Positions 807-23,190 of a DNA stretch of 25,508 nt are shown here, in pieces. This DNA comes from a virus. Within the stretch, counting starts at the first letter, position 1; every line of letters starts with the position of its first letter. A program made the position numbers and the translations under genes. The DNA lies in IMG/VR virus record IMGVR_UViG_3300048112_000129, positions 1-25,508 of that record. One strand, given 5' to 3'. The notes under the pieces are model-generated. The model was not told the origin of the DNA. It did no database searches and was given only the letters and a program-made list of their open reading frames with translations.

Positions 807-2599
807 TGCTAGTGACTCTTGACTTCGAAACGTATTACGACAAAAACCTTTCGCTAACTAAAATGACTACGATGGAATACGTCAGCCACGACTTGTTCAA
901 AGTGTGGGGCGTAGGCATCAAGATAAATCATGATGCAACAGAGTGGTATGGCGAAGACGATTGCGAAGAGGCGCTTCGATCCCTGAATTGGGACGACATA
1001 ACGCTGGTATGTCACAACACTCCGTTTGATGCTTATATTTTGACGCAGTATTACGGACTAATACCAAAGTACTACGTAGATACCGCTGCAATGAGTCGCG
1101 GGTTGTACCCAGGGCAAAGCGCTCGTTTGAAAGACGTATCAATACGCTGTTTCCCCGATGACGAAACAATGCGTAAAGGTGAAGAGCTAGCTAATGCTAA
1201 AGGTGTTTACGACTTAGACCCTGAACTAGAAGAAGCTATTGCTGGCTACTGCATACAGGATGTCGATCTTACTTACGCTATTTATCGTAAGTGGACTAAC
1301 CAAATGCCACTAAACGAACTTGATCTAATCGATCTCACATGCCGCATGTTCTGCGAGCCCAAGCTAAAGATTGACCGCGAACGACTGGCAAAGTACCACG
1401 AACAAGAGTTCAAGAACGCAGAGACGACCATCGCTGCAGCAGGCGTCGACCGCAAAGTCCTCAGCTCTAACCAACAATTTGCTGAGTATATTTATGAGAT
1501 TGGCCTCGTACCACCAACAAAGGTTAGCCCAACGACAGGCAAAGACATCCCAGCCCTTGGTAAAAACGACAAAGCCTTTACCCAACTGCAAAACATGTAC
1601 CCACAGTTCAAGCATGTATGGGACGCACGCATTGCCACAAAGAGTCGCTTAACCGAGACCAGGGCAAAACGCTTCTTGGAAGCTGCATGGAAAGACGACT
1701 GGTTACCTGTCCCTCTTAGATATTATGCGGCTCACACCGGACGTTTTGGCGGCACCGACAAGCTCAACATGCAAAACCTCCCTCGAGGCGGTGAGCTACG
1801 CAAATGCATTGTGGCACCTGACGACCATCTTTTGTTTGTTGCTGATTTATCCAACATCGAAGCCCGTATGCTTGCTTGGTTAGCTGGCGAAAGCGAATTA
1901 GTCGAACAATTCCGTAACGGGGACGACATATACAGTAACTTCGCCTCCAAGATTTACGAACGGCCTATCAATAAAAAGGACGACCCAATCGAAAGATTTG
2001 TAGGCAAGACCGCTATATTGGGTCTTGGTTACGGTATGGGCGCTCAAAAATTCAAAGACACGCTAGAAGCTGGAGCTATGGGACCACCTGTCCACTTCAC
2101 ACTAGAAAAAGCCAAACAAATTGTTAATACATACCGCAGTACATACTCAGGTATACAAAGACTCTGGCGCAAACTAGAGGACTTACTCAAACAAACTATG
2201 CACTCAGACAACTGGGGCAACACGTACGGGCCACTGACTGTTGGCGACAACACTCTACAACTGCCAAATGGCCTAGGGCTCAGGTATCACAACTTACGTT
2301 CTACCAGCCAAGGCCTTATGTACGACTCACGTAAAACTGAGTACACGTACGGCGGACGCATAACAGAAAACGTAATCCAAGCGTTAGCCCGCATAGTCAT
2401 TACTGACAGCATGTTACGACTCGACAAGACACACGATGTTGCACTCACAGTACACGACGAAATAATTATTACTGGTACTAATATTAAGCCTGATGCTACA
2501 ATGGAGAAGATTATCTCCGACATGTGTATACCACCTTGTTGGGCACCCGATTTACCGCTAGATGCCGAAGGCGGATACGCCAAAGAGTACAGTAAGTAA
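806..2599 (+). CDS. Family A DNA polymerase with 3'-5' exonuclease domain
   Basis: This 597-aa phage replicative polymerase should copy phage DNA and proofread. The DEDD exonuclease motifs are intact: Exo I D6-F-E8, Exo II N71-x3-D75, Exo III Y148-x3-D152. The polymerase motifs follow: motif A D347-L-S-N-I-E-A-R, the O-helix R-F-V-G-K401-T-A-I-L405-G-L-G-Y409-G-M, and motif C V-H550-D551-E552. There is no 5'-3' exonuclease domain, and the length is normal for phage PolA proteins of this type. The O-helix residue corresponding to E. coli Pol I Phe762 is Leu405. The start is an ATG in a TAATG overlap with the gene before. The csrA gene starts directly after the stop. Confidence 0.97.
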   Translation: MLVTLDFETYYDKNLSLTKMTTMEYVSHDLFKVWGVGIKINHDATEWYGEDDCEEALRSLNWDDITLVCHNTPFDAYILTQYYGLIPKYYVDTAAMSRGLYPGQSARLKDVSIRCFPDDETMRKGEELANAKGVYDLDPELEEAIAGYCIQDVDLTYAIYRKWTNQMPLNELDLIDLTCRMFCEPKLKIDRERLAKYHEQEFKNAETTIAAAGVDRKVLSSNQQFAEYIYEIGLVPPTKVSPTTGKDIPALGKNDKAFTQLQNMYPQFKHVWDARIATKSRLTETRAKRFLEAAWKDDWLPVPLRYYAAHTGRFGGTDKLNMQNLPRGGELRKCIVAPDDHLLFVADLSNIEARMLAWLAGESELVEQFRNGDDIYSNFASKIYERPINKKDDPIERFVGKTAILGLGYGMGAQKFKDTLEAGAMGPPVHFTLEKAKQIVNTYRSTYSGIQRLWRKLEDLLKQTMHSDNWGNTYGPLTVGDNTLQLPNGLGLRYHNLRSTSQGLMYDSRKTEYTYGGRITENVIQALARIVITDSMLRLDKTHDVALTVHDEIIITGTNIKPDATMEKIISDMCIPPCWAPDLPLDAEGGYAKEYSK

Positions 2600-2600
2600 T

Positions 2601-2780
2601 ATGTCGAGACTCGTTTTGACCAGAAAACTAAATGAATCTGTCGTTGTTCACCAAGACGACAAGGTTCTGCTCGCGGTCAAAGTTTCAAAAATCGACAGAA
2701 ACCAAGTTCGCCTCGCGTTTGACGCTGATCACGACATAAAAATCGATCGGCGAGAGGTGTATGACAAGCCCGAAGACTAG
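2601..2780 (+). CDS. csrA: Phage-encoded CsrA/RsmA-like RNA-binding regulator
   Basis: A 59-aa CsrA homologue, close to the usual ~60 aa. The beta1 strand S-R-L-V-L-T-R-K matches the CsrA N-terminus (M-L-I-L-T-R-R). It is followed by N-E-S, the N-Q-V-R-L-A-F core strand, and the C-terminal I-D-R-R-E-V-Y matching V-H-R-E-E-I-Y. Arg50 aligns with the RNA-contacting Arg44 of E. coli CsrA; the second basic residue of beta1 is Lys9 instead of Arg. CsrA dimers bind GGA motifs in mRNA leaders, usually blocking ribosome entry. I chose the ATG at 2601, two bases after the polymerase stop, because a longer in-frame version adds residues outside the fold. No strong RBS is seen, so expression may depend on coupling to the polymerase gene. 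Confidence 0.93.
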   Translation: MSRLVLTRKLNESVVVHQDDKVLLAVKVSKIDRNQVRLAFDADHDIKIDRREVYDKPED

Positions 2781-2850: not shown

Positions 2851-5364
2851 TTGCGAATAACCTTTCTTGAGGCCACTAATGGTCTCCCGCTTAGTAAGCA
2901 CTACTCAAAAGGTAGCGGTTTCAAACCATACCCGCACGTAAAAGCAGTTACGTCACATAAATACAACTTATCTGTTGATGCTGACGGCTTACAAACCTTT
3001 GAGAATCTTATTAGAGATCACGGAGCAAAAGGTCACTGCCTACTAAAGGGCAACCTAAAACGTGACTTAGTAGACGAATCTCGTGCAGGACAGACCAACC
3101 GTACCGAGTTAACAAACCTACTCGTGCTCGACATTGACGGCGTGCGCTTACCAAAATCTGTAGATACAGGCGATAAACTATCTAGTACTGACGTTACGTT
3201 TCTAGCCAATCAAATAGTTGCAGAACTACCTATTGAGTTGCGAGACATAAGCTACGTCGCGCAAGCCTCAGCAAGTTTGGGTCTTAAAGGCGACAAGATA
3301 TCTATGCATATCTTTATGCTCCTCTCAGTAGCCATGCCAGCAAAATCAGTAAAGCTGTGGCTACAAGACTGTAACTTTGAGTCTGATGTATTCAGCGAAC
3401 AAATGGAGCTGTCTGTAAACGGGCAATCATTGAAGTACCCTTTAGACACTTCAGTAGCTGACAACTCAAAGATCATATTCATAGCACCACCGTCTTTTGA
3501 ATCAACGCGACTAGACCCATTTGATTCCGACGATGATCGAATAGTTAAAGTAGACCGTGGGCAACCGACACTTGACCTAGCATCCTTGATGTCTGACATC
3601 AGCCCTCAACGTTGCCACGAGAAAGCGCAAAAGCACAAAGACACGTTGCGCGATGCAGCAGGCTTCAGCAAACGCCAAACTAAGATTCGCGTAGCAACCA
3701 TTGATAACCAAACAGAAGAAGTCCTATCTAATCCAGACAAGATGGCTATAGCCATTGTTGACGAGACTTCATTCCCATACATACGTTGCAACATCAACGG
3801 CGGAGACTCTGGCGCGTACTACTTCAACATGTCCAAGCCAACGTACATGTACAACTTCAAAGACGAACCACTGTTTGAGATCGAGAAAGCCGACAAAGAT
3901 TTTTACGTATCTATATTCGAACGTTACGAAGAGCGGTTAGAAGAAGTGGGACATGCAGTCAAACCAGTTGTACTGCGCGATTACTCAACTGACACCTTCT
4001 TCAACGGCGTGTATGACCCAAACACTAAACAGTTCGCTAAAGAATATCCGCTGACCCCCATCAGTAAGATGAACATCGAAGACTTCTATATGAATCACGG
4101 CAAAGTACCGCCTGACTTCATACCAGACGGACGCGTTATCTTTGACCCGACATCTAATGAAGAAGCTATTAACTTCAACAAAGTGCCTTACTACGTCAAC
4201 ACGTATCAAAAAAGCGACTACGTGCGTAATGCGCAGACGCCGCAAGTACCGTTAGAGATAGGCCACGGACAACGGATAAAGGACACCTGTCCACTGATAC
4301 ACACAATCATCTACCACATACTTGGCAATGGTGATGAAGAATACGAGCGCTTTATTAACTGGCTAGCATACATCTACCAGACGCGTAAAAAGACGGGCGT
4401 ATCCTGGGTACTGACAGGCACACAAGGCACTGGTAAAGGTGTCTTCTACTCCAAAATCCTCAGAGGGCTATTCGGTACACCACATGTACCCATGAAGTTT
4501 CTGCAAAGCATGGAAGAACAATTCAATCTGTATATGCGAGACGCGCTGTTTCTAGTGGTTGATGAGTTCCATATGGCATCAGCATCATCTAGCGCAGGTA
4601 AGATGGCAGACAAACTAAAGAACCAGATCACTGAGCCTACGATCACAATACGTGGTATGCGGTCCAATCAAGTAGAAGTTGAGTCTTACACCAACTATCT
4701 GTTCTTAACGAACAGGGTAGACGCAGTAAACATCGAGACTGGTGATCGCCGGTACAACATTGCACCCAAACAAGAAGAGAAGCTGCTCGAAAAGTTCCCA
4801 GGCATTGCCAAGCAATTAGACTCAGGAAAACTCGAGAAAGAACTGTATGAATTCGCTGGGATAATGCAAACGTACAAAGTAGATGCGCACCTAGCTAAGA
4901 CTGCAATTAACAACCTTGCTAAAGAACAGATGCGTAACGTATCAATGTCTGTGTTTGAAGAGTTCTGTCAGGCACTTAAAGAAGGCAAGCTAAGCTACTT
5001 CACTGACATTCTTGATATCAACACAGCAACTGTACTGCACTCCAACGAGATTGAAGCAGCGCAACGACTTGTTAAATCATGGATCGCTCACGCAGAGCAC
5101 CCATATATGGTTCTCCCAATGGAGCATCTGCGTACGGTATTCCACGTACAGACAGAGCAAAACCCGCGCCTGTCGCAACGTGAGTTTACAAAGCGCATGA
5201 GTAGAAACGGCATTGAGACAGAACGCAAACGCCCACACGGAGCAGCTAGAGATACAAATCCAATACGCGGAGTTGTTACTACGTGGCAGTCAAACGAATT
5301 AGAACTCAAGCGATTGCAGGAATCATATTTCACGGAACAAGACCGTAAATTGCTTACGGTTTAG
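2851..5364 (+). CDS. Phage primase-helicase (P-loop C-terminal ATPase, DUF5906-like)
   Basis: This 837-aa protein probably primes and unwinds DNA at the fork. The C-terminal half carries a Walker A G523-T-Q-G-T-G-K529-G and a Walker B hydrophobic strand ending D571-E572-F-H, followed by a sensor-like F-L-T-N-R segment. This is typical of phage D5/SF3-like helicases with DUF5906. The N-terminal third has L-L-V-L-D-I-D-G, compatible with a primase (AEP-like) active-site strand, but I cannot confirm the complete primase triad. The start is TTG, preceded by a strong AGGAGGAG; the rare start plus the leader hairpin suggests tight translational control. The stop lies just before promoter/palindrome site b. 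Confidence 0.85.
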   Translation: MRITFLEATNGLPLSKHYSKGSGFKPYPHVKAVTSHKYNLSVDADGLQTFENLIRDHGAKGHCLLKGNLKRDLVDESRAGQTNRTELTNLLVLDIDGVRLPKSVDTGDKLSSTDVTFLANQIVAELPIELRDISYVAQASASLGLKGDKISMHIFMLLSVAMPAKSVKLWLQDCNFESDVFSEQMELSVNGQSLKYPLDTSVADNSKIIFIAPPSFESTRLDPFDSDDDRIVKVDRGQPTLDLASLMSDISPQRCHEKAQKHKDTLRDAAGFSKRQTKIRVATIDNQTEEVLSNPDKMAIAIVDETSFPYIRCNINGGDSGAYYFNMSKPTYMYNFKDEPLFEIEKADKDFYVSIFERYEERLEEVGHAVKPVVLRDYSTDTFFNGVYDPNTKQFAKEYPLTPISKMNIEDFYMNHGKVPPDFIPDGRVIFDPTSNEEAINFNKVPYYVNTYQKSDYVRNAQTPQVPLEIGHGQRIKDTCPLIHTIIYHILGNGDEEYERFINWLAYIYQTRKKTGVSWVLTGTQGTGKGVFYSKILRGLFGTPHVPMKFLQSMEEQFNLYMRDALFLVVDEFHMASASSSAGKMADKLKNQITEPTITIRGMRSNQVEVESYTNYLFLTNRVDAVNIETGDRRYNIAPKQEEKLLEKFPGIAKQLDSGKLEKELYEFAGIMQTYKVDAHLAKTAINNLAKEQMRNVSMSVFEEFCQALKEGKLSYFTDILDINTATVLHSNEIEAAQRLVKSWIAHAEHPYMVLPMEHLRTVFHVQTEQNPRLSQREFTKRMSRNGIETERKRPHGAARDTNPIRGVVTTWQSNELELKRLQESYFTEQDRKLLTV

Positions 5365-10379: not shown

Positions 10380-10811
10380 ATGAACGAGCACAGTTTTGTA
10401 CGAAGCATACATAACGCTCTGTCACCCGACGTCTACAAGTGGAAAATCCACGACACGTATACGGGAGGTGTGCCCGACGCCATGTATGCAGGCCCTGCAG
10501 GTGTGCTGTTCGTAGAGTACAAGTATGTCAAAGCTCTACCTAAGAAAGACACGACCGTGATCCGCCATTCGTTATCAGCGCTTCAATGTGCGTGGCTCGA
10601 GCGTATGAAAGCCAGTACATCAGTAGCATTAATATTAGGTGTAGGTGATTCAGCACTAATAATAGTTGACGAGTTCGCAGCTAATATATATAAATCTAAC
10701 TATGTAGAGGAAAGTATTCCACGGAAGCAGGTAGCTGAGTGGATCTACAACCAAACACACTCAGGAAGAGCACATGAAAAAAGCCCACGAGTTGCCACAG
10801 GCTGTGAATAA
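10380..10811 (+). CDS. VRR-NUC domain nuclease, 143 aa
   Basis: A compact PD-(D/E)XK enzyme of the VRR-NUC group. G-G-V-P-D33-A-M-Y precedes V-L-F-V-E46-Y-K48, the catalytic D...E-x-K; S-A-L-Q69-x2-W72-L follows, as in the family. Such phage nucleases cut branched or flap DNA and accompany SNF2-like helicases. The start has no strong SD sequence. The interval before it can form alternative hairpins, so translation may be regulated. The gene's end overlaps the XRE regulator by 38 nt. Confidence 0.9.
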   Translation: MNEHSFVRSIHNALSPDVYKWKIHDTYTGGVPDAMYAGPAGVLFVEYKYVKALPKKDTTVIRHSLSALQCAWLERMKASTSVALILGVGDSALIIVDEFAANIYKSNYVEESIPRKQVAEWIYNQTHSGRAHEKSPRVATGCE

Positions 10812-11349
10812 CTTACGCGCTATTTGGGACCAAAAGAAAGCTGAGATGAAGTTTACGCAAGTTGAAGCTGCGGCAAAACTTGGCTGGTCACAAAGCGCTG
10901 TATCTCATTATCTTAACGCTATTACTGAACTTGGCCCTGCGGCAATTATTAAGTTTGCTAATTTTTTGGGTGTTGATCCTGTTGAGATCGACCCGAACGT
11001 TCAAGAGTTCTTGCCTCACACTAGAACTCGAATAATCAAATATGACGTTGCCAATCTGTCAAAACAAATCAATGTAAAATACTACGATACTCACCCCCCA
11101 TCTTCTTTTTGGGTAAAAACAGACTCTAGCGTATTTACTTACCAAACCCATAGCGCGAACAAGAATGCTACGTGGTTCACTCATGTGTGCCCGCCAAAAG
11201 ACCACCCCAGAGCTAGCATTTATATGGTCCAAATTAAGGGCCAAAAAGAAGGTCGCATTTACAAAAAAGAAGACTTACCGCCAGAATCAGACATACATAA
11301 AAAGTTCGCCGTACTTGAGACAGAAGTTAACAACAGCATTACCGATTGA
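10774..11349 (+). CDS. XRE-type transcriptional regulator (probable phage repressor-like)
   Basis: A 191-aa protein. The N-terminal helix-turn-helix (about residues 26-48) reads K-F-T-Q-V-E-A-A-A-K-L-G-W-S-Q-S-A-V-S, followed by F-A-N-F-L-G-V-D-P-V-E-I, the usual XRE end. The C-terminal ~90 residues (S-S-F-W-V-K-T-D-S, then I-Y-M-V-Q-I-K-G) recall the S24/LexA-like dimerisation domain, but the G-D-S-M and K dyad motifs are not visible, so self-cleavage is not supported. GGAAGAG precedes the start. It is co-directional with replication genes, not divergent as in lambda-type switches. It is the best candidate for the protein that binds the dispersed palindromes, one of which lies directly after it. 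Confidence 0.82.
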   Translation: MKKAHELPQAVNNLRAIWDQKKAEMKFTQVEAAAKLGWSQSAVSHYLNAITELGPAAIIKFANFLGVDPVEIDPNVQEFLPHTRTRIIKYDVANLSKQINVKYYDTHPPSSFWVKTDSSVFTYQTHSANKNATWFTHVCPPKDHPRASIYMVQIKGQKEGRIYKKEDLPPESDIHKKFAVLETEVNNSITD

Positions 11350-11410: not shown

Positions 11411-11623
11411 GTGGAACAGATCTTATTAGAGAAGTACGGCCCGTTCATGGACTTGGAAGAACTTGCCAATCTATTAAGGATCAAGAAACAGTCGGTGTAT
11501 CAGCAGATATATCGCGGCCAACTAGACGTACCTCATGTACGGCGCGGTAAAAAGTATCTTTTTCCGACTCAAGAAATTGCTAAATACTTCACATCCCAGC
11601 TAAATCTTCCGCGCGGAGATTGA
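11411..11623 (+). CDS. Excisionase/AlpA-like HTH protein, 70 aa
   Basis: GTG start with AGGAGG (11396-11401) nine nt upstream. The fold signature is M-D-L-E-E-L-A-N-L-L-R-I-K-K-Q-S-V-Y-Q-Q (residues 13-32), followed by G-Q-L-D-V-P-H-V-R-R-G-K-K-Y-L-F and an E-I-A-K-Y-F helix. This is the MerR-like helix-turn-helix plus wing of HTH_17/excisionase proteins. Its place beside the integrase suggests a directionality factor or a regulator of integration. The last 35 nt overlap the 3' end of the integrase gene on the other strand. Confidence 0.8.
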   Translation: MEQILLEKYGPFMDLEELANLLRIKKQSVYQQIYRGQLDVPHVRRGKKYLFPTQEIAKYFTSQLNLPRGD

Positions 11624-12611
11624 CGTACCTTGAGAGTTGTTCAAGTGAGCTGTGTCCCGAAACAACTTGCACTTGTTCAACTCGCATCCCCCTCTCAAAC
11701 ATCCGACTTATCGCCTCATGACGCAAATCATGGAAGCGCAGGTCGTCAATCCCCAGCTTCTTAGTCATCTTGGCAAATTTGTCAGAAATCGACGCAGTAG
11801 TCCTTACAGTGAAAGGGTAATCACCTTGCCCAAGATCATTCTGTGCACGTAGCAACGCCTCTCTCACGCCCTCCACAAGCGGTACTTCCTTCCAAGACTT
11901 GCCTGTTTCTGAGTCTTTATCTTTCCGATTCACGCGGACAAGATCCTTTTCCCAGCACACGTTAGACCATTTTAACTCGTGAATTTCCCCTTGGCGTAGA
12001 CCAGAGTGAACAGCTATATCGATCGCGTACCACAGCCAATTAGGTTTTTCATTACTGCCTTTATAAATGCCGCACTCAAACTTCAGTGCTTCTAGTTCAG
12101 ACGGGGTTGGCCGACGCGTACGCCACACGCTGCCTTTGATCACCTTCTTTCTTTTCAGCTCGTCGATAGCTTGCGCCACAACATTCTCTTGAGTTGTGAT
12201 CCGACTGGCTTCTACGACCTGACGCAAGTAGTACATTTGTTTTTGAAGCGTTGAAGCGGAAATCGTTTTGTAGCGCATAGCTGCAAAATCCATAACCATG
12301 TCGTAGGTCATATCGTGTATCGATACACCGCTAAAATATTTTTTGATCTGATTAAGTTGTCCCATCTTCGGGACAGGGGTAACGATTTCAAACTTAGTAT
12401 TTTCGGCTACTAATCGGTCGACCAAGTAATCAATGTGAGTAGACCGCGTACCGCTGACGTCTACCCACGAATGACTGTCCATCTGGGATTCTATTTTTAA
12501 AACCCATGAAGCGGCGGCTGCCTTAGTAAAAAAACTTTGTGTTTGTTGCGGGTAACCCTTGATGCGGATCTGAGCTTTCCACTTCTTTCCGCGCTTTGTT
12601 ATCGTTGCCAT
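11589..12611 (-). CDS. int: Tyrosine recombinase (phage integrase)
   Basis: A 340-aa integrase. An N-terminal arm-binding-type segment (G-K-K-W-K-A-Q-I-R-I-K-G, residues ~8-19) is followed by a core-binding SAM-like region (about 55-155) and the catalytic domain. Catalytic residues: R206 (H-S-G-L-R), Lys near 230-238, H294-x2-R297 (H-D-L-R-H), H320 (S-G-H-S), and Y329 (R-Y-V-N-L). All are present, so it should be active. The ATG is chosen at 12611; the two TGGCACAC repeats lie directly upstream, overlapping the likely leader or RBS. The adjacent tRNA-Ser-like attP core supports site-specific lysogeny. Confidence 0.97.
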   Translation of the reverse strand: MATITKRGKKWKAQIRIKGYPQQTQSFFTKAAAASWVLKIESQMDSHSWVDVSGTRSTHIDYLVDRLVAENTKFEIVTPVPKMGQLNQIKKYFSGVSIHDMTYDMVMDFAAMRYKTISASTLQKQMYYLRQVVEASRITTQENVVAQAIDELKRKKVIKGSVWRTRRPTPSELEALKFECGIYKGSNEKPNWLWYAIDIAVHSGLRQGEIHELKWSNVCWEKDLVRVNRKDKDSETGKSWKEVPLVEGVREALLRAQNDLGQGDYPFTVRTTASISDKFAKMTKKLGIDDLRFHDLRHEAISRMFERGMRVEQVQVVSGHSSLEQLSRYVNLRAEDLAGM

Positions 12612-12613
12612 CA

Positions 12614-12632
12614 GTGTGCCATCCGTGTGCCA
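12614..12632. repeat. GTGTGCCA direct repeats, 11-bp spacing (arm-type or operator sites)
   Basis: Two perfect copies of GTGTGCCA start at 12614 and 12625, one helical turn apart, right beside the integrase start codon. The same 8-mer recurs as an inverted pair at 12831-12848 on the far side of the attP core. They are candidates for integrase arm sites or excisionase/repressor sites. Confidence 0.65.
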
Positions 12633-12681
12633 GTGAGTGTATGCTCACACGGAAACGTAGCTGTGACAAGGGCTAGATTGA

Positions 12682-12701
12682 TGGCGGAGAGAGAGGGATT
12701 C
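12682..12701 (-). other. attP: attP core: tRNA-Ser 3'-end-like sequence
   Basis: On the minus strand the 20 bp read GAATCCCTCTCTCTCCGCCA. This matches tRNA numbering 57-76: T-loop GAAT, T-stem 3' half, acceptor strand TCTCTCC, discriminator G73 and CCA. G73 with a GGAGAGA-complementary acceptor strand is characteristic of a tRNA-Ser. No other tRNA part is present, so it is a fragment, as expected for an attP that restores the tRNA end after integration. Confidence 0.8.
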
Positions 12702-12830
12702 TGTACCTAAATCACCTCTAAACCCTTCTGTATCAATGCTTTTAGCTATATTTATGTCTATCTGTAATACAACTACTGATTCGCATAACTTATTGATACT
12801 ACTACATATTTCATTTTACATTATTTTTCA

Positions 12831-12848
12831 GTGTGCCAAGTGGCACAC
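12831..12848. repeat. GTGTGCCA-AG-TGGCACAC inverted repeat
   Basis: A perfect 8-2-8 inverted repeat made of the same 8-mer found twice next to the integrase start. No T-run follows on either strand, so it is a protein-binding site candidate and not a terminator. Confidence 0.6.
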
Positions 12849-12988
12849 TAAAGATCTTGTTTGGCTATCGCGCCTAAAGCTACAAGAACAAAAGCTATTA
12901 CGTAAAGAATCATGCTTACCTCTGGTTGATTGAGGCGCAATTATACGTGGGCTAGCGATATGCGACCAATGCATTAAATGCATCAACG

Positions 12989-13225
12989 TTATGCAAATCT
13001 GTACTTACCGCGATTTTTCTTTCGACTAACCACCTTCACATTACTAGGCTTGTTGTTGCGTGGGTTACCGTCCTTGTGGTGAACATCTTTCTTGTCACCT
13101 TTCTTCACTTTACCTTTGGCGAGAGCAGTCCGACGGGCTTTGTTACGGCCCGCACGGTTCTTCTTCTGGTCAGCCTTACTATGGTATTCGCTGTACTCTT
13201 TCTTGTAGTTCCGCTTAGTACCCAT
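12989..13225 (-). CDS. HNH-like small basic phage protein, 78 aa
   Basis: The protein is very basic: M-G-T-K-R-N-Y-K-K-E-Y, then K-K-N-R-A-G-R-N-K-A-R-R, and an HNH-like core D-V-H-H-K-D-G-N-P-R-N-N with N-V-K-V-V-S-R-K-K-N-R. This is a widespread phage protein resembling the beta-beta-alpha metal part of HNH nucleases without much else. It may bind or nick DNA; activity cannot be judged. It is the last gene of the late operon, and its start overlaps the end of the Lys-rich peptide gene. Confidence 0.8.
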   Translation of the reverse strand: MGTKRNYKKEYSEYHSKADQKKNRAGRNKARRTALAKGKVKKGDKKDVHHKDGNPRNNKPSNVKVVSRKKNRGKYRFA

Positions 13226-15322: not shown

Positions 15323-16464
15323 TAGAGATTCCCCAGCTTCACACGCAACGTGTTAGACGAGTCGAAAACTTCAATTTTGTCTTCTTGGATTACCATTCGC
15401 GCGCCTGACGCAGCGCTCTTCAAATTAATTTGTGCTCCTGTACCAACAAGGTTCAGCTTATTTACCCCAATGCTGCTTGCAGCAAGTCTGTCGGCACTCA
15501 GTGTGCCCGTAGAGATCTGATTAGCACTTAATGAACCAATCTTTGCTGACGTAATGGACGCGTCTTTTATCGCGGCTGCTTTGATGTACGTGGTGCCACT
15601 GTCAATGAAAAACGGTACGTTGTCCGCTGTCGGAGTAGTTGTACCAAGGCCATCAGCCGTTGATGCAGGATTAATCACCGCGAACTTATCAGCACGAACA
15701 ATAAATGCAGACGTAGGGCCTGCGGTCGTAGTCGTGTTGCTTAGACCAAAGCCCGCAACATGACCGTTGTTATCGATCTTTACTGAGTACTGACCTTCAA
15801 GATCTGTTATGTCAGTCTTAATGCCTGGGATATCGCTAATTGGAGTCGCTAACGACGTAGCTAACTCGCTGGTAGTAATTGCATTAGCCAGAACGTTTAA
15901 CTGAAAGTCAACGTCCGCAGCCGTTGTGGCCGCTGTTCCCGCGCTGGCATTGAACGAGCCAAATACGTCAGCTTGAGAAACAGCTCGAACCCAATAGTAA
16001 CGAGTCTGCGCACTTCCAACTGGGTCGGTGTATGTGAACCCACTAACAACAGCAGTCAGCACGGCGTCACCAAGCACGTCACTAGTGTGAGACCACACCT
16101 CTGTAAGCACTCCAGTGCCGGAAGCAATAGGAGCCCAACTCAGATTAATAACAGAATACGCGCCCAATGCCGCAAGACTAGTAATAACCGCAGGAGGGCT
16201 AAGGTCTTGTATCGCTGGAGTAGGCGCAGGGCTAATAGAGCCGACTAACCCTGTACGACCCTCGTTAAAGTAGTTTCCTTGGAGATTGACTGCAAGGCCC
16301 CCAGCAACAAGCTCTCGTAAGGTAACGGCTCGATCAAGGGGATCACCTCGACGACCAAGGCGTATCTCAACGGCTTCTGCTAGAGCAGTAAGATAGGCGC
16401 GCGTTTCTGCATCTACCGTTGAAGGTGGTCTTGGTATGCCTGGAACTTGAGTGGGGTTTGTCAT
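15322..16464 (-). CDS. Tail host-specificity protein, lambda J C-terminus-like (FN3 + DUF1983)
   Basis: A 380-aa protein starting M-T-N-P-T-Q-V-P-G-I-P-R-P-P at an ATGA overlap. Residues ~90-178 form a fibronectin type III-like domain (V-I-N-L-S-W-A-P, then Y-Y-W-V-R-A-V). Residues ~222-270 are the DUF1983 signature: Y-S-V-K-I-D-N-N-G-H-V-A-G-F-G-L-S-N and F-I-V-R-A-D-K-F-A-V-I-N-P. The end (I-Q-E-D-K-I-E-V-F-D) is typical of J-like tail-tip proteins. The large N-terminal part of J is absent, so this is a split or reduced version. It should sit at the tail tip and take part in receptor recognition. Confidence 0.88.
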   Translation of the reverse strand: MTNPTQVPGIPRPPSTVDAETRAYLTALAEAVEIRLGRRGDPLDRAVTLRELVAGGLAVNLQGNYFNEGRTGLVGSISPAPTPAIQDLSPPAVITSLAALGAYSVINLSWAPIASGTGVLTEVWSHTSDVLGDAVLTAVVSGFTYTDPVGSAQTRYYWVRAVSQADVFGSFNASAGTAATTAADVDFQLNVLANAITTSELATSLATPISDIPGIKTDITDLEGQYSVKIDNNGHVAGFGLSNTTTTAGPTSAFIVRADKFAVINPASTADGLGTTTPTADNVPFFIDSGTTYIKAAAIKDASITSAKIGSLSANQISTGTLSADRLAASSIGVNKLNLVGTGAQINLKSAASGARMVIQEDKIEVFDSSNTLRVKLGNL

Positions 16465-18164
16465 GTACCGCGCACCTCGTCCATCGCTTGCGCAAGACAA
16501 AACTCATTTATGTCTGTCCCTTCTACCTGAACCTCCCACTCCTGAGCAATAACAGCGGGCATGCGCATGATTGGTTCTTGTAAAGTGCCATTACTAACCC
16601 CGCTCGGTACAGTAGTAGCCTGCGTGTATGTTGCTCCTGATTTACTAAGTACATAATGAGCAACAAGTGAGCCGTCGCCGTATACCTTTACTGTTACTGG
16701 GTAAACATTTGCGTTGACTGAGATCCAACCCATAGAGATCGGAGTAGGTGATACAAACTTTTTAGTCTTGAACTTGAGGTTCTTAGGTGTGGTGCTGCCG
16801 CGATATTTGCGAATTTTGTTTCCGACAATAACGTAAAGCTGGCCGTCTTTCGGGTTCCGGTAGCCGCCTCTAACATCTCCAGAAACTGTCAATGTAGTTA
16901 GGCTTGCGTCCTGATTGCGGGGGTCGTATACCCAACCACCACCAGCATGAAAAGCTACGTACGTGCCCTCATGCTTAAACGCTCGAATAGTGGTTGGGTT
17001 GAAGTCATCGTTCCACTGTTTAGCACTAATTTGGCCTTGCGTTGCAACAGCTCCTTGAACGCCTTGCACTGTGCATAAGCCATCTGGCCCCGCATAAATG
17101 ATGTAGTCGCCCATATCTACAACGCTTCGCGTATTGACGCAGGCTTGTGCCAGATCTATTCGAATCGCCGTCATAGCACTAGGGTCAGTACCAGTAATGA
17201 AATAAGGCTGACCGTCTGTCAAAGCAACTACGCCATTAGAAGTGCTTGCTATCGCAACAATGTCTTCTTCAGTTGTAATCCGATATTGGATCGGCCAAGC
17301 ATGCGGAAGAAATGGTTCGCTCAAGCAGAAACGCTTGCCTGTAAAGCCTGCCATAACGCCTTGTGCGAGTGGGATTAAGCCCTGCAACGGGCCATCGGGA
17401 TACAGGTTCGTATCATCATCTGGCGGACCAATCCAAGTATCACTTGGCAATACTTCACCCAAAAGCGCAGACTCGGTGCTATCGGTATACGAAGTAGTGT
17501 TGTATGACACCTCAGCTACAAACTGAAACCGCGTGTTTGTAGAACCTGTATTGGAACGGTATATGCGCTTTTTTGAACCAGTGCCAAAATTATAGTTACC
17601 AGAAGGTAAGCTGCCTGAAGCTAAAGTAAGTGTTGCGGTTTGACCGGAATCTTTTTCTATCGCACCGCTTGGGTCGCTAGGTGGGCCCTCTTCGCCAAAA
17701 GCAGTTACCAACGTATATACATAGCTAACGTCATCGGGCGTAAGGGTGTCATCGGCTGTGTTATTTATAACGACAGTAGGGGCAGCGGAAGGCGCGGGAA
17801 CTCCTAAACGATAAGACGTATTAGGATAACCGTTGTTGCCAGCCACTAAAGTGGCGTATGTACCAACGCGCGGGTAATCGTCACCGGTATAATACAAGCG
17901 ATCAGTTGTATCCCCTGGTATAGGCCCTGGCACTACAGAGACGTCTTCTTCGCTCCACTCCAACCAGTTTGTGTCACGGTAGAAATATATAGAACGTCGC
18001 GCAGAATTTTGCAGCGAATACGTATCAGAATCTTCAGTAACAGATTTTAGGTGTTGGGACTCAAAATCAATATTCTCTGCAATCTGCCCGAATCTCTCCG
18101 CCAACAGTCGAGGATTGACTGCCGGTGCAATGCCTGCAAATTTTTCTCTTTTAAAATAAACCAT
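16461..18164 (-). CDS. Large virion structural protein, 567 aa
   Basis: I chose ATG 18164 (M-V-Y-F-K-R-E-K-F-A-G) because AAGAGG precedes it; an upstream GTG lies before the RBS. The N-terminus F-A-G-I-A-P-A-V-N-P-R-L-L-A, then G-Q-I-A-E-N-I-D-F-E-S, is a pattern seen in unnamed virion proteins of marine phages. The rest is beta-rich, with Y-V-Y-T-L-V-T-A-F-G-E-E-G-P-P-S (FN3-like strand) and repeated G-x-Y-V/I segments that could be propeller blades. It has its own promoter with palindrome site f and starts the second late unit. The exact virion location is unknown. Confidence 0.82.
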   Translation of the reverse strand: MVYFKREKFAGIAPAVNPRLLAERFGQIAENIDFESQHLKSVTEDSDTYSLQNSARRSIYFYRDTNWLEWSEEDVSVVPGPIPGDTTDRLYYTGDDYPRVGTYATLVAGNNGYPNTSYRLGVPAPSAAPTVVINNTADDTLTPDDVSYVYTLVTAFGEEGPPSDPSGAIEKDSGQTATLTLASGSLPSGNYNFGTGSKKRIYRSNTGSTNTRFQFVAEVSYNTTSYTDSTESALLGEVLPSDTWIGPPDDDTNLYPDGPLQGLIPLAQGVMAGFTGKRFCLSEPFLPHAWPIQYRITTEEDIVAIASTSNGVVALTDGQPYFITGTDPSAMTAIRIDLAQACVNTRSVVDMGDYIIYAGPDGLCTVQGVQGAVATQGQISAKQWNDDFNPTTIRAFKHEGTYVAFHAGGGWVYDPRNQDASLTTLTVSGDVRGGYRNPKDGQLYVIVGNKIRKYRGSTTPKNLKFKTKKFVSPTPISMGWISVNANVYPVTVKVYGDGSLVAHYVLSKSGATYTQATTVPSGVSNGTLQEPIMRMPAVIAQEWEVQVEGTDINEFCLAQAMDEVRGT

Positions 18165-18181
18165 CGTAACCTCTTGCACTT

Positions 18182-18212: not shown

Positions 18213-18740
18213 CTAAACGTAGTAAAAATAAGGGTCTTTACTGTGAGCCTCTAAAAACTTAAAGGCTGTCGCCAGATGCGTCCCTACAACTTCAGGCTCT
18301 ATCTTGTATATGGTTACAGCGGTACGTTGCTTGGGTATCTCCGAGACACTGTGGGGAACGGCTGAGTTGTGGAAGTACCAACGGTTTGCGTCATATTTAA
18401 CTGTTTCAACCACGTCCCCCTCCATGTCTTTTTTCCATCGCGTGACAGCACCTTCACCATGTAACAGGCAGTTGTAAGACCATTTTCTTATCGTGTCCGT
18501 GTGAAAATGGGCGTAATCAGTGTCGAAGCGTTGAATCGTCACAACCCATTCGTCGCTCAAATCAATAGGTATGTTTTCCACGACCCACTGACGCAACGAC
18601 CAGGGGGCTGTAAGCATCGAAAAAGGCTCTTTTTTAGATGCGGGAATCGCTCTTTCAGATGACAACGACCATTCTATTAGATCAGCGGCCATGTCATCGG
18701 GGAAGGAAGGCCAATTCTTCTTTTCGTAATACTTACCCAT
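18213..18740 (-). CDS. 2OG-Fe(II) oxygenase-like protein
   Basis: A 175-aa protein with the iron and 2-oxoglutarate signature of the double-stranded beta-helix dioxygenases: H80-x-D82 (H-F-H-T-D), distal H130 (A-V-P-H-S-V) and R139 (K-Q-R-T-A-V-T-I). The layout is nearest to aspartyl/asparaginyl or prolyl hydroxylase-like proteins, which are frequent in marine phages. It would hydroxylate a side chain or small molecule; the substrate is unknown. It is the last gene of the unit that also encodes the sulfotransferase and glycosyltransferases, and its ATG overlaps the sulfotransferase stop by 8 nt. Confidence 0.78.
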   Translation of the reverse strand: MGKYYEKKNWPSFPDDMAADLIEWSLSSERAIPASKKEPFSMLTAPWSLRQWVVENIPIDLSDEWVVTIQRFDTDYAHFHTDTIRKWSYNCLLHGEGAVTRWKKDMEGDVVETVKYDANRWYFHNSAVPHSVSEIPKQRTAVTIYKIEPEVVGTHLATAFKFLEAHSKDPYFYYV

Positions 18741-19416
18741 CTAGTGGTTCTACTGAATTGTAGAACTCTATGTCTTTAGCGAAATAAAGCTTCATTCGTT
18801 CGTAGCAGTCCGACGGCAACCACGTCTCTACAGGTTGCTTAAACTCTTCGGGAGTCCCTGTCGGATTTCTCTGGATGTGGGGGAGATTAACAGACACGTT
18901 TTTACCAAGTGTATCGCTTAAAACTTTGTTTGTGGCCGCTTCCGCATCTTCGAACCGGTATGCGTCCACAACTGTTTCTCCGTTGTGGCAAAAAAACTGT
19001 TCGTAGCTGAATGGTCGGTCTGATTTCTGACCCGTAAGCATATGAGCGGCAAAAGGCATCGGTGACGTTTGCCTTACCAAGTTACATATCTGAGTTAAAG
19101 GGTCTTGATGTTTGTCGAGAACGCCAATGAACCTAGCCAGAAAAATACTTGAAACCCATCTCTCAAAAGGTTCTCTAACAAAAGCAAAAGCGCGGAACTC
19201 TTTAAGCTCGTCTTCTGTCATAACCCCTGTATCAACTAAAACAGATGGCCTCATGTGGTATTTCTTTATATTGTCAAAATCCACTGAGTGGCTAAGAGAG
19301 CGAACAATATCTGTTTGATCAGCGATTTCAGCGTTCTGCAAAGCGTGTTGAACTGAGTTAGATGCAGTGCGGGGAACTGCTACGAACAAAAGTTTATGTT
19401 TTTTTGAAAGGTACAC
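18733..19416 (-). CDS. Sulfotransferase family protein
   Basis: I chose GTG 19416 (V-Y-L-S-K-K-H-K) with GGAG 8 nt upstream, since its first base overlaps the previous stop; a longer frame runs through the upstream gene. In the 227-aa protein, L-F-V-A-V-P-R-T-A-S-N-S (residues ~10-21) is the 5'-phosphosulfate loop, and F-V-R81-E-P-F-E-R-W-V-S89-S is the 3'-phosphate binding motif (Arg and Ser) of PAPS-dependent Sulfotransfer_2 proteins. It should transfer sulfate to a sugar or Tyr/Ser group. Placement with two glycosyltransferases suggests sulfation of a glycan, possibly on the virion. Confidence 0.85.
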   Translation of the reverse strand: MYLSKKHKLLFVAVPRTASNSVQHALQNAEIADQTDIVRSLSHSVDFDNIKKYHMRPSVLVDTGVMTEDELKEFRAFAFVREPFERWVSSIFLARFIGVLDKHQDPLTQICNLVRQTSPMPFAAHMLTGQKSDRPFSYEQFFCHNGETVVDAYRFEDAEAATNKVLSDTLGKNVSVNLPHIQRNPTGTPEEFKQPVETWLPSDCYERMKLYFAKDIEFYNSVEPLDG

Positions 19417-20000
19417 TATGATGCTCCGGTTGTGTCTGCGTAACCATCCGTTACGGTGGCCCCTGGTGTAAGTCTGCGAATCAGATCCTCTTGCATTGGC
19501 CCTACAGTCGGCCCCTTCCAGCGGGCAGCGACAGTTGTAGGTGTGAGGCCATCCTTCCATTTTTGGAAGGCGAGCAGCCCAAAACCGCCGTTCACTACAT
19601 CACGGGCTACACCTTTAAAATTGACGCCTGCTCCATGAGTCTCGCCTGTAACTAAAGTCTCAGATGCCTCTCTGTAGGTGGTCTGCTTCAACTGACCTGC
19701 GTCATCTACTGCCCAGGTGTCCAAGCGCATCTTGATCACATCAACGTCTGGGTGTCCGTGGATAGGTAAGTTTGGGCAAGGATGTATCAGGTACAGTTCA
19801 ACCTGAAACTGACCGCTTCTAAACAAGCAAAAAGAAGTAGCGTCGTCGCTTAAATTTACGACCTCGTCCGGCGGGGCTATCGGCCTGTTAGAAGCATTCC
19901 ACCACTCGCAAAACTCCCGCACTGTTTCCCAATGCGGCACCGCGTGGCCCCGCATCGGGTTAGTGCTAAAAACACCCTGCTTTGCCATCTTAATAGTCAT
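19416..20000 (-). CDS. Cupin-like protein, 194 aa
   Basis: The central segment F-Q-V-E-L-Y-L-I-H-P, then L-P-I-H-G-H-P-D-V-D, resembles cupin motif 1 (H-x-H-x3-D/E), and T-H-G-A-G-V-N follows further on, supporting a metal-binding beta-barrel. Not enough to name an enzyme; sugar-modifying cupins or cysteine-dioxygenase-like folds are possible. The start is a TAATG overlap; a second ATG four codons on is an alternative. Neighbours are glycosyl- and sulfotransferases. Confidence 0.65.
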   Translation of the reverse strand: MTIKMAKQGVFSTNPMRGHAVPHWETVREFCEWWNASNRPIAPPDEVVNLSDDATSFCLFRSGQFQVELYLIHPCPNLPIHGHPDVDVIKMRLDTWAVDDAGQLKQTTYREASETLVTGETHGAGVNFKGVARDVVNGGFGLLAFQKWKDGLTPTTVAARWKGPTVGPMQEDLIRRLTPGATVTDGYADTTGAS

Positions 20001-21897: not shown

Positions 21898-22015
21898 GTC
21901 TTTTTACCAATTGAGCCACCTGCTCTTCGAGTTCAGAAATACGGTCTTCTGTTTCTGAAAAGTGCTCCATAATTACGTCAAGCGTGTTTTCTAATTTTCG
22001 AGCTATATCATCCAT
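21881..22015 (-). CDS. Coiled-coil peptide, 44 aa
   Basis: An ORF with a TAATG junction to the fibre gene. M-D-D-I-A-R-K-L-E-N-T-L-D-V-I is followed by hydrophobics in heptads (I-S-E-L-E-E-Q-V-A-Q-L-V-K-R-L). It looks like a short trimeric or dimeric coiled coil that could serve as a fibre chaperone or joint. No database family known to me. Confidence 0.6.
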   Translation of the reverse strand: MDDIARKLENTLDVIMEHFSETEDRISELEEQVAQLVKRLEETS

Positions 22016-23190
22016 TAGTCTTCCGTCCACTGTGAGCCATCCCAATAACGGCGATTGTTAGCGCCTTGACTGCCTACTTCGGTCTCATTACCCGTTGCTG
22101 TAAGTCTTTCGTAAACCACCGTGGACGTATCCCGATTCGTGTTAGTCGATCTACTTGTCCCTGTGTCATGCGCGGTAGTGTTGTTAGTGTCAAAAGTCGT
22201 AGTGAACGACGTAGTAGTTGATCTGCTTGTTCCAGTAGCCCGCGACGTATTAAACGACGTAGTAGTTGATCTGCTGGTGCCAGTGGCGCGAGACGTAGTA
22301 ACCGACGTAGTAGTTGATCTGTTGGTGCTAGTGGCGCGAGACGTGGAGAGGTACGTGGTGGTTGCTTTGCTCGTGCCGCGAGAGGTTCCGCGAGAGGTTC
22401 CACGGGTGGTTCCGCGAGAGGTTCCATAAGTAGTGGTGCGAGAAGTGCTGCGGGTTCTGGCGAGCCTCTTAATTCGATACTGTGTGGTCGTGACGCTATA
22501 ACCGTCAACAATAGAACTGTGTGTAGCGCCCCGCTGGTATGTAAAACCGCCTGTCGTATAAGTGGTGCTGGCTGCTAAAGATGTGGAATTTAATTGACTA
22601 CCGTACCACCAGAATTGGGTGCCAGAGCCAGCGATATTGCCGCCAGATATACGTGTTACACGGTAACTTGTGCTGTACGCTGGGTAGCTTTGTGCGTGTG
22701 TCTGTGTGTTAAACGACGTGCTACGCGACGTGTTAAACGACGTGACGATAGCCGTATTGAACGATGTAGTGTACGACGTATTGAACGACGTAGTAGTTGA
22801 TCTGCTTGTACCGTAAGTGGTCGTTGTGTTGAACGACGTGGCGGTTGCTTTGGCGGTGCCAAAAGAAGTCGTGGTGTTAAAGGCTGTAGTCGTAGCGTTG
22901 CTTGTACCAAAAGTAGTGGTCGTGTTGAACGCTGTAGTCGTAGCGTTGCTTGTACCAATGCTCGTACTATAAGTCGTTGTATAGCTGGTCGAAGTGTCAA
23001 ACGCTGTAACTGTACCAAAAATGGTACTGGTGTCTCTGGTTGTGTCGTAAACAGCATTCCAGACAGTGCCTAACGTACCGTTGTTGTTGGCAACCACATA
23101 GTTAACGCCATAAAGCGTCCCCTGGTCACCTTTAGCGAAGATTTGGGTAGGCTCTTTAAGAGTACCACTGTCGTTAACTTTTATTGACAT
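22015..23190 (-). CDS. Thr/Ser-rich repeat tail fibre protein, 391 aa
   Basis: The protein has a conserved-looking N-terminus (S-I-K-V-N-D-S-G-T-L-K-E-P, then G-V-N-Y-V-V-A-N-N-N-G-T). Then comes a 16-residue repeat array (residues ~79-165), a globular-looking insert (~167-245, W-W-Y-G-S-Q-L), a second repeat array (~248-358, first G-T-S-R-G, then the 16-residue unit), and a C-terminal G-S-Q-G-A-N-N-R-R-Y-W-D-G-S-Q-W. The unit is about G-T-S-x-x-T-T-T-x-F-N-T-x-x-x-x. Almost half of the arrays is Thr or Ser. It is probably a fibre or spike that meets the host surface. The AAGGG before the ATG fits as RBS. The adjacent glycosyltransferases make it a candidate for O-glycosylation. Confidence 0.85.
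   Translation of the reverse strand: MSIKVNDSGTLKEPTQIFAKGDQGTLYGVNYVVANNNGTLGTVWNAVYDTTRDTSTIFGTVTAFDTSTSYTTTYSTSIGTSNATTTAFNTTTTFGTSNATTTAFNTTTSFGTAKATATSFNTTTTYGTSRSTTTSFNTSYTTSFNTAIVTSFNTSRSTSFNTQTHAQSYPAYSTSYRVTRISGGNIAGSGTQFWWYGSQLNSTSLAASTTYTTGGFTYQRGATHSSIVDGYSVTTTQYRIKRLARTRSTSRTTTYGTSRGTTRGTSRGTSRGTSKATTTYLSTSRATSTNRSTTTSVTTSRATGTSRSTTTSFNTSRATGTSRSTTTSFTTTFDTNNTTAHDTGTSRSTNTNRDTSTVVYERLTATGNETEVGSQGANNRRYWDGSQWTED
22186..22329 (-). repeat. 48-bp tandem repeats coding R-S-T-T-T-S units (fibre array 2)
   Basis: Three near-identical 48-bp copies; the shared stretch CGACGTAGTAG begins at 22207, 22255 and 22303. Each encodes a 16-residue unit (residues 288, 304, 320 onward). Such repeats can expand or contract by slippage or recombination. 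Confidence 0.8.
22765..22956 (-). repeat. 48-bp-period repeats coding G-T-S/A units (fibre array 1)
   Basis: Four more diverged copies of the 16-residue unit, with Gly-Thr at residues 79, 95, 111 and 127. The nucleotide copies are less similar than in array 2, which suggests array 2 is younger. Confidence 0.75.

Follow-up and report, generated by a model that had tools for sequence, protein, structure and literature searches.

A probable attP site built on the 3′ end of tRNA-Ser, with arm motifs that co-vary with the integrase N-terminus, in an uncultured temperate tailed phage

The window analysed here, a whole virus record of 25,508 bases, carries on its minus strand a gene for a tyrosine integrase of 340 amino acids (11589–12611), which begins 70 bp beyond a 20-bp sequence, GAATCCCTCTCTCTCCGCCA, lying on the same strand at 12682–12701. 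The catalytic domain of the integrase (PF00589) scored 75.7 bits against a Pfam cut-off of 27.1, and R206, H294, R297, H320 and Y329, which we take to be the conserved R, H-x-x-R, H and Y catalytic residues of tyrosine recombinases, are invariant in 13 aligned rows. A structure model of modest confidence (pLDDT 78.8, pTM 0.55) fits lambda Int (1z1b) over its full length, and also 1z1g, 5j0n and Tn1549 Int; ahead of the core-binding and catalytic domains it places strands at residues 2–7, 10–15 and 23–27 and a helix at 30–44, a β-β-β-α arrangement that makes residues 1 to about 45 a predicted arm-binding domain. Such domains occur in mobile-element integrases generally, according to PMC8138268. 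On the plus strand lie a repressor-like HTH_3 gene (10774–11349) and a candidate excisionase gene of the HTH_17, Xis-like type (11411–11623), convergent with int and overlapping it at its 3′ end.

Elsewhere the window encodes a CsrA-family protein (2595–2780, plus strand; PF02599, 50.2 bits) directly after a DNA polymerase gene and, all on the minus strand, an internal virion protein (16461–18179; phrog_511, E 1e-137) about 30% identical to homologues in Vibrio, Burkholderia and E. coli phages, a sulfotransferase-like protein (18733–19560; phrog_3347, E 8.8e-10) and a long, repetitive Ser/Thr-rich protein (22015–23190) with no PHROG match. The phage collection contained no DNA relative of positions 5000–25508 at megablast sensitivity, and protein relatives there were all below 60% identity.

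Numbered back from the CCA (74–76), the 20 bp read G at 73, TCTCTCC at 66–72, CCCTC at 61–65 and GAAT at 57–60. They thus correspond to tRNA-Ser positions 57–76, from the T-loop to the CCA end with G73 and a TCTCTCC acceptor strand, just as the sequence-only reading had proposed when it named this stretch an attP core. The sequence has no second match in the window even with up to three mismatches, and none of 100 dinucleotide shuffles produced one. ARAGORN detected no whole tRNA gene in the window and an Rfam search of it gave no match, so that the core is a fragment, as expected of an attP core. Viral contigs hold the exact 20-mer in at least 120 stretches; among the matches listed, 45 of 121 occurrences overlap an ARAGORN tRNA call, and all 45 calls are tRNA-Ser (anticodons TGA, GGA, CGA or GCT), while many other listed copies are attP-like places adjoining integrases (44 integrase matches among the contigs listed). 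The assignment to serine also held in bacterial genomes, where tRNA-Ser genes with an identical 3′ end had been predicted: the first 35 bacterial loci (L241–L275) all carry the exact copy inside a tRNA-Ser gene (22 GCT, 10 GGA, 2 CGA and 1 TGA), and ARAGORN called tRNA-Ser in eight of eight further loci (L305–L312).

A search by integrase sequence alone retrieved 17 viral loci, every one of which carries the core just before int (12 exactly, five with one mismatch). No whole tRNA was found in these 17 loci, which therefore look like the unintegrated form, and the recurrence of the core at the same place in all of them strongly supports its reading as an attP core. Later searches brought the clade to 25 distinct members with integrases 48–100% identical, the core being kept at 0–1 mismatch in 25 of 25, although some of the members beyond the first 17 were retrieved by means of the core itself or its flank (one right-flank search gave 26 stretches, five of them the already-known attP of L017, L060, L102, L232 and L233; a second gave 17 stretches). 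The variants, T66C in four loci and T70A in one, can both be read as tRNA acceptor variants, T66C fitting the acceptor GGAGAGG...CCTCTCC of the tRNA-Ser genes in two bacterial loci, L152 (Microvirga) and L157 (Bosea). If the 20 bp were instead left over from a tRNA-Ser gene carried by the phage, and no attachment site, they would equally present an exact tRNA 3′ end, but the rest of the tRNA is absent upstream, the 20 bp stay at 0–1 mismatch beside int in all 25 distinct relatives while their flanks diverge, and the core also lies beside integrases only 28–36% alike (loci chosen for holding the core); we consider such a remnant extremely improbable.

Two further observations concern the extent and orientation of the core. 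Identity to the tRNA reaches seven bases further into the T-arm in L003 and L004 (27 bp), and also in L060 and L102; it looks as if host tRNA bases had been picked up by imprecise excision or exchange. In a second integrase subfamily (32–36% identity) the 20-mer is the same but faces the other way with respect to int (L032, L047, L049, L055, L075, L077, L085, L086, L097, L099, L100 and L137), and in several of these loci a near-perfect inverted repeat encloses it.

Read along the tRNA strand, the site comprises an inverted pair at −149, IHF-like sites at −97 and −42, the core, a pair of direct repeats and the int start codon. The distal arm (12830–12849; −149 to −127 from the core) consists of AGTGTGCCA at 12830–12838 and its inverted partner TGGCACACT at 12841–12849, whereas the int-proximal arm (12613–12632), which ends adjoining the int start codon, consists of direct copies 11 bp apart, AGTGTGCCA at 12613–12621 and CGTGTGCCA at 12624–12632. 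The motif GTGTGCCA has four copies in the window, all in the arms (shuffles average 1.2 copies, and three of the 100 have at least four), so that no exact copy lies by the repressor gene. This geometry is conserved: in 24 of 25 relatives an automatic finder put the inverted repeat at this −149 position, the one that it missed (L007) having the repeat in the fixed register, and the 11-bp spacing of the direct repeats is fixed among relatives. Between the distal arm and the core lie an IHF-consensus match at −97 (12786–12798, minus strand; TATCAATAAGTTA) and a second IHF-like site at −42 (12731–12743, plus strand; TATCAATGCTTTT) that agrees with 12 of 13 consensus positions and is an exact consensus in several relatives. 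An IHF consensus stands at −97 and/or −42 in 16 of the 25 attP loci, against 1.8% of shuffles, and is absent from both places in the other nine. The Xis-like HTH_17 gene occupies the same place after int in 22 of 25 attP loci. With its arms, IHF-like sites and Xis-like gene, the attP has, as far as sequence can tell, a lambda-like organization.

A conserved ORF of 21 amino acids (12848–12913, minus strand; MILYVIAFVLVALGAIAKQDL), whose stop codon touches the distal arm, would encode a hydrophobic peptide and has a purine-rich stretch ahead of its start; by a count made by eye, a similar peptide is encoded at that place in 17 of 25 attP loci. A promoter scan of 12560–13000 gave one promoter-like site, on the plus strand, and none for int, a result no better than that of shuffles.

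The arm motifs themselves differ between relatives, amounting to about 15 motifs. We compared the arms of 40 attP sites: the 25 of the clade, six from distant loci of the same orientation (of eight) and nine with the core inverted relative to int (of 12), L089, L132, L097, L100 and L137 being omitted as near-duplicates judged by eye. Distal and proximal arms of the same phage matched in 34 of the 40 (score of at least 12 of 14); among mismatched pairs 15% scored as high, and none of 2000 shuffles equalled the result. Against a reading of the arms as phage-specific codes stand L032, L055 and L077, in which no inverted repeat qualified, and the scores of 10, 11 and 11 for L133, L129 and L047 respectively. 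Distance between motifs followed distance between integrase N-termini, with a partial r of 0.635 given the catalytic domain (25 clade loci; 0 of 2000 permutations, in a test that ignores the relatedness of the sequences); counting against the arm-code reading, the same 25-locus scan also gave r values of 0.35 and 0.29 for integrase windows 211–250 and 241–280. Over 37 loci, the three lacking a repeat having been dropped beforehand, residues 1–22 gave a partial r of 0.42 and residues 231–290 also 0.30.

Alternatively, the HTH_3 repressor might use these repeats as operators, or the Xis-like protein might bind them, in which case they would not be integrase arm sites. Excisionase sites, too, typically take the form of direct repeats spaced by one helical turn, those of 186 Apl being an example, and the repressor does differ (41% identity) between L036 and L111, a pair with different motifs. 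Among the 22 loci with all genes, however, the partial r of motif distance was 0.57 for the integrase N-terminus against 0.15 for the repressor and 0.07 for Xis (core-binding domain, −0.23); the Xis proteins of L036 and L111 are identical at 67 of 68 positions despite the differing motif, and confinement of the exact motif to the arms in the window speaks against operators as well. We therefore judge this alternative unlikely and continue to read the repeats as probable integrase arm sites.

In three sets of relatives the N-terminus and the arm sites appear to have been replaced together while the catalytic domain was kept. The catalytic domains of L036/L299 and L111/L115 are 96–99% identical and their N-termini 52–55%; the corresponding values are 97–98% and 52% for L130 against L301/L304, and 96% and 67% for L013 against L296. 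Between L036 and L111 the distal repeat is changed although the DNA around it is almost identical, and similarity is only about 50% in the proximal arm and over the first 45 or so codons. Within the clade of the window, aligned residue 14 tracks the motif type in 25 of 25 members when compared by eye, Q (16 members) going with CACA, I (five) with CACCC and E (four) with GACG, which makes it a candidate recognition-code position there; outside the clade the code fails, other I-bearing integrases having other motifs.

More distant integrases from bacterial genomes (at most 33% identity) were located at 99 loci, at least one place being counted twice. A tRNA lies within 600 bp of the integrase at 63 of the 99, with many isotypes represented, and the first-listed tRNA is upstream on the strand of the integrase in 61 of the 63. 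L152 and L157 show an intact tRNA-Ser(CGA), then a pair spaced by 11 bp (identified by eye), then int; no attR was found within 60 kb downstream of these Microvirga and Bosea tRNA-Ser genes, so that only the attL side is seen. The GTDB scan for the integrase of the clade returned, among the matches listed, only relatives of at most 33% identity, and no close integrase occurred in samples of 369 and 390 genomes. The proposal of integration at the 3′ end of a tRNA-Ser gene in the host, with restoration of that gene, is upheld in part: the target is strongly supported by comparison, and restoration follows from the identity of the 20 bp to the tRNA end, but the search for prophages ending at tRNA-Ser yielded no integrated copy of the clade, among the GTDB matches listed or in the sampled genomes, that could display either.

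The integrase could also act on a different or additional site, the tRNA match being a historical trace. That no lysogen turned up in those GTDB matches and sampled genomes, and that many tRNAs are targets among relatives of about 30% identity, would agree with this, but the core is kept across integrases 48–100% identical and its only variants are tRNA-like, and we regard a different site as very improbable. The tRNA-Ser 3′ end thus stays the preferred target.

The 20-mer had also been offered as a handle for host assignment, a use that we rejected since the sequence is too common. It occurs in 135 of 229 genomes from the class of a SAR92 MAG (presumed Gammaproteobacteria), 23 of 142 from the class of a SAR116 genome (presumed Alphaproteobacteria), 2 of 99 from the phylum of a Cyclobacteriaceae MAG and 1 of 61 from the phylum of a Marinimicrobia MAG, the class and phylum names of all four sampled groups being presumed. 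Being so widespread, in tRNA-Ser genes with four anticodons, it points only weakly to a host, mainly among Gammaproteobacteria; a short match to a tRNA tail does not identify a host.

Taken together, the window very probably contains the attP of a temperate tailed phage with a lambda-type tyrosine integrase whose target is the 3′ end of a tRNA-Ser gene in the host. The N-terminal domain of the integrase would bind the arm repeats that flank the core, bends at the IHF-like sites would bring the arms together, and the catalytic domain would carry out recombination between the 20-bp core and its identical counterpart, the 3′ end of the host gene (attB). As the phage supplies bases 57–76, the tRNA gene would be complete again at the int-side junction, with int just downstream of it on the same strand. 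Excision is likely to depend on the HTH_17 protein as excisionase, and int is probably autoregulated, given that the proximal arm abuts its start codon.

The attP of phage lambda has a core between arms carrying repeated sites, IHF sites and a Xis gene beside int. The window shares with it the two-arm layout, the IHF-like sites, a Xis-like gene beside int and the Int fold (1z1b, 1z1g, 5j0n), and differs in its target, a tRNA-Ser 3′ end, in its arm motifs and in having an inverted pair as distal arm and a direct pair 11 bp apart as proximal arm. A partial precedent is found in the Cluster K mycobacteriophages (Pope et al. 2011, PMC3203893), whose attP lies 5′ of int and has a 24-bp core, at the 3′ end of the tmRNA gene, flanked on either side by paired 11-bp arm sites. 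Arm sites and integrase N-terminus vary among those of these phages that have an attB in common; within Cluster K1 the paper singles out residues 17/19 of the integrase and one position of the arm. Here, by contrast, whole motifs and the first 45 or so residues are replaced beside catalytic domains that are 96–99% identical. The KplE1 prophage (intS/argW; PMC2951348) likewise has int beside a tRNA gene with a control region overlapping arm-type sites, a precedent for int control; its tRNA is argW and its int regulation was measured, whereas ours is deduced from sequence. Phages of tRNA-dependent lysogeny (PMC10865867) also use a tyrosine integrase, their attB overlaps a tRNA of the host and their core lies between putative arm-type sites. 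That core, of about 10 bp, does not restore the tRNA, for which the phages bring a replacement, whereas the 20 bp of the window should rebuild the tRNA, and ARAGORN found no tRNA gene in the window.

For this group of uncultured temperate phages, the attP thus makes the target site clear. As a site it is ordinary and of a known kind, and the modular arm specificity is the more interesting result; in the literature found, as far as its text was available, we met no whole-module replacement with a fixed core, which may still have been published. We put forward the hypothesis, to which we give somewhat less than an even chance, that an interchangeable module of N-terminal domain and both arms, combined with a fixed core and catalytic domain, insulates phages that share the tRNA-Ser 57–76 attB from one another. 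If so, the integrase of one phage would not excise or recombine the prophage of another, in the manner of the immunity groups of repressors. The natural domain swaps make both the arm specificity of the integrase and the interference between phages with a common attB directly testable.
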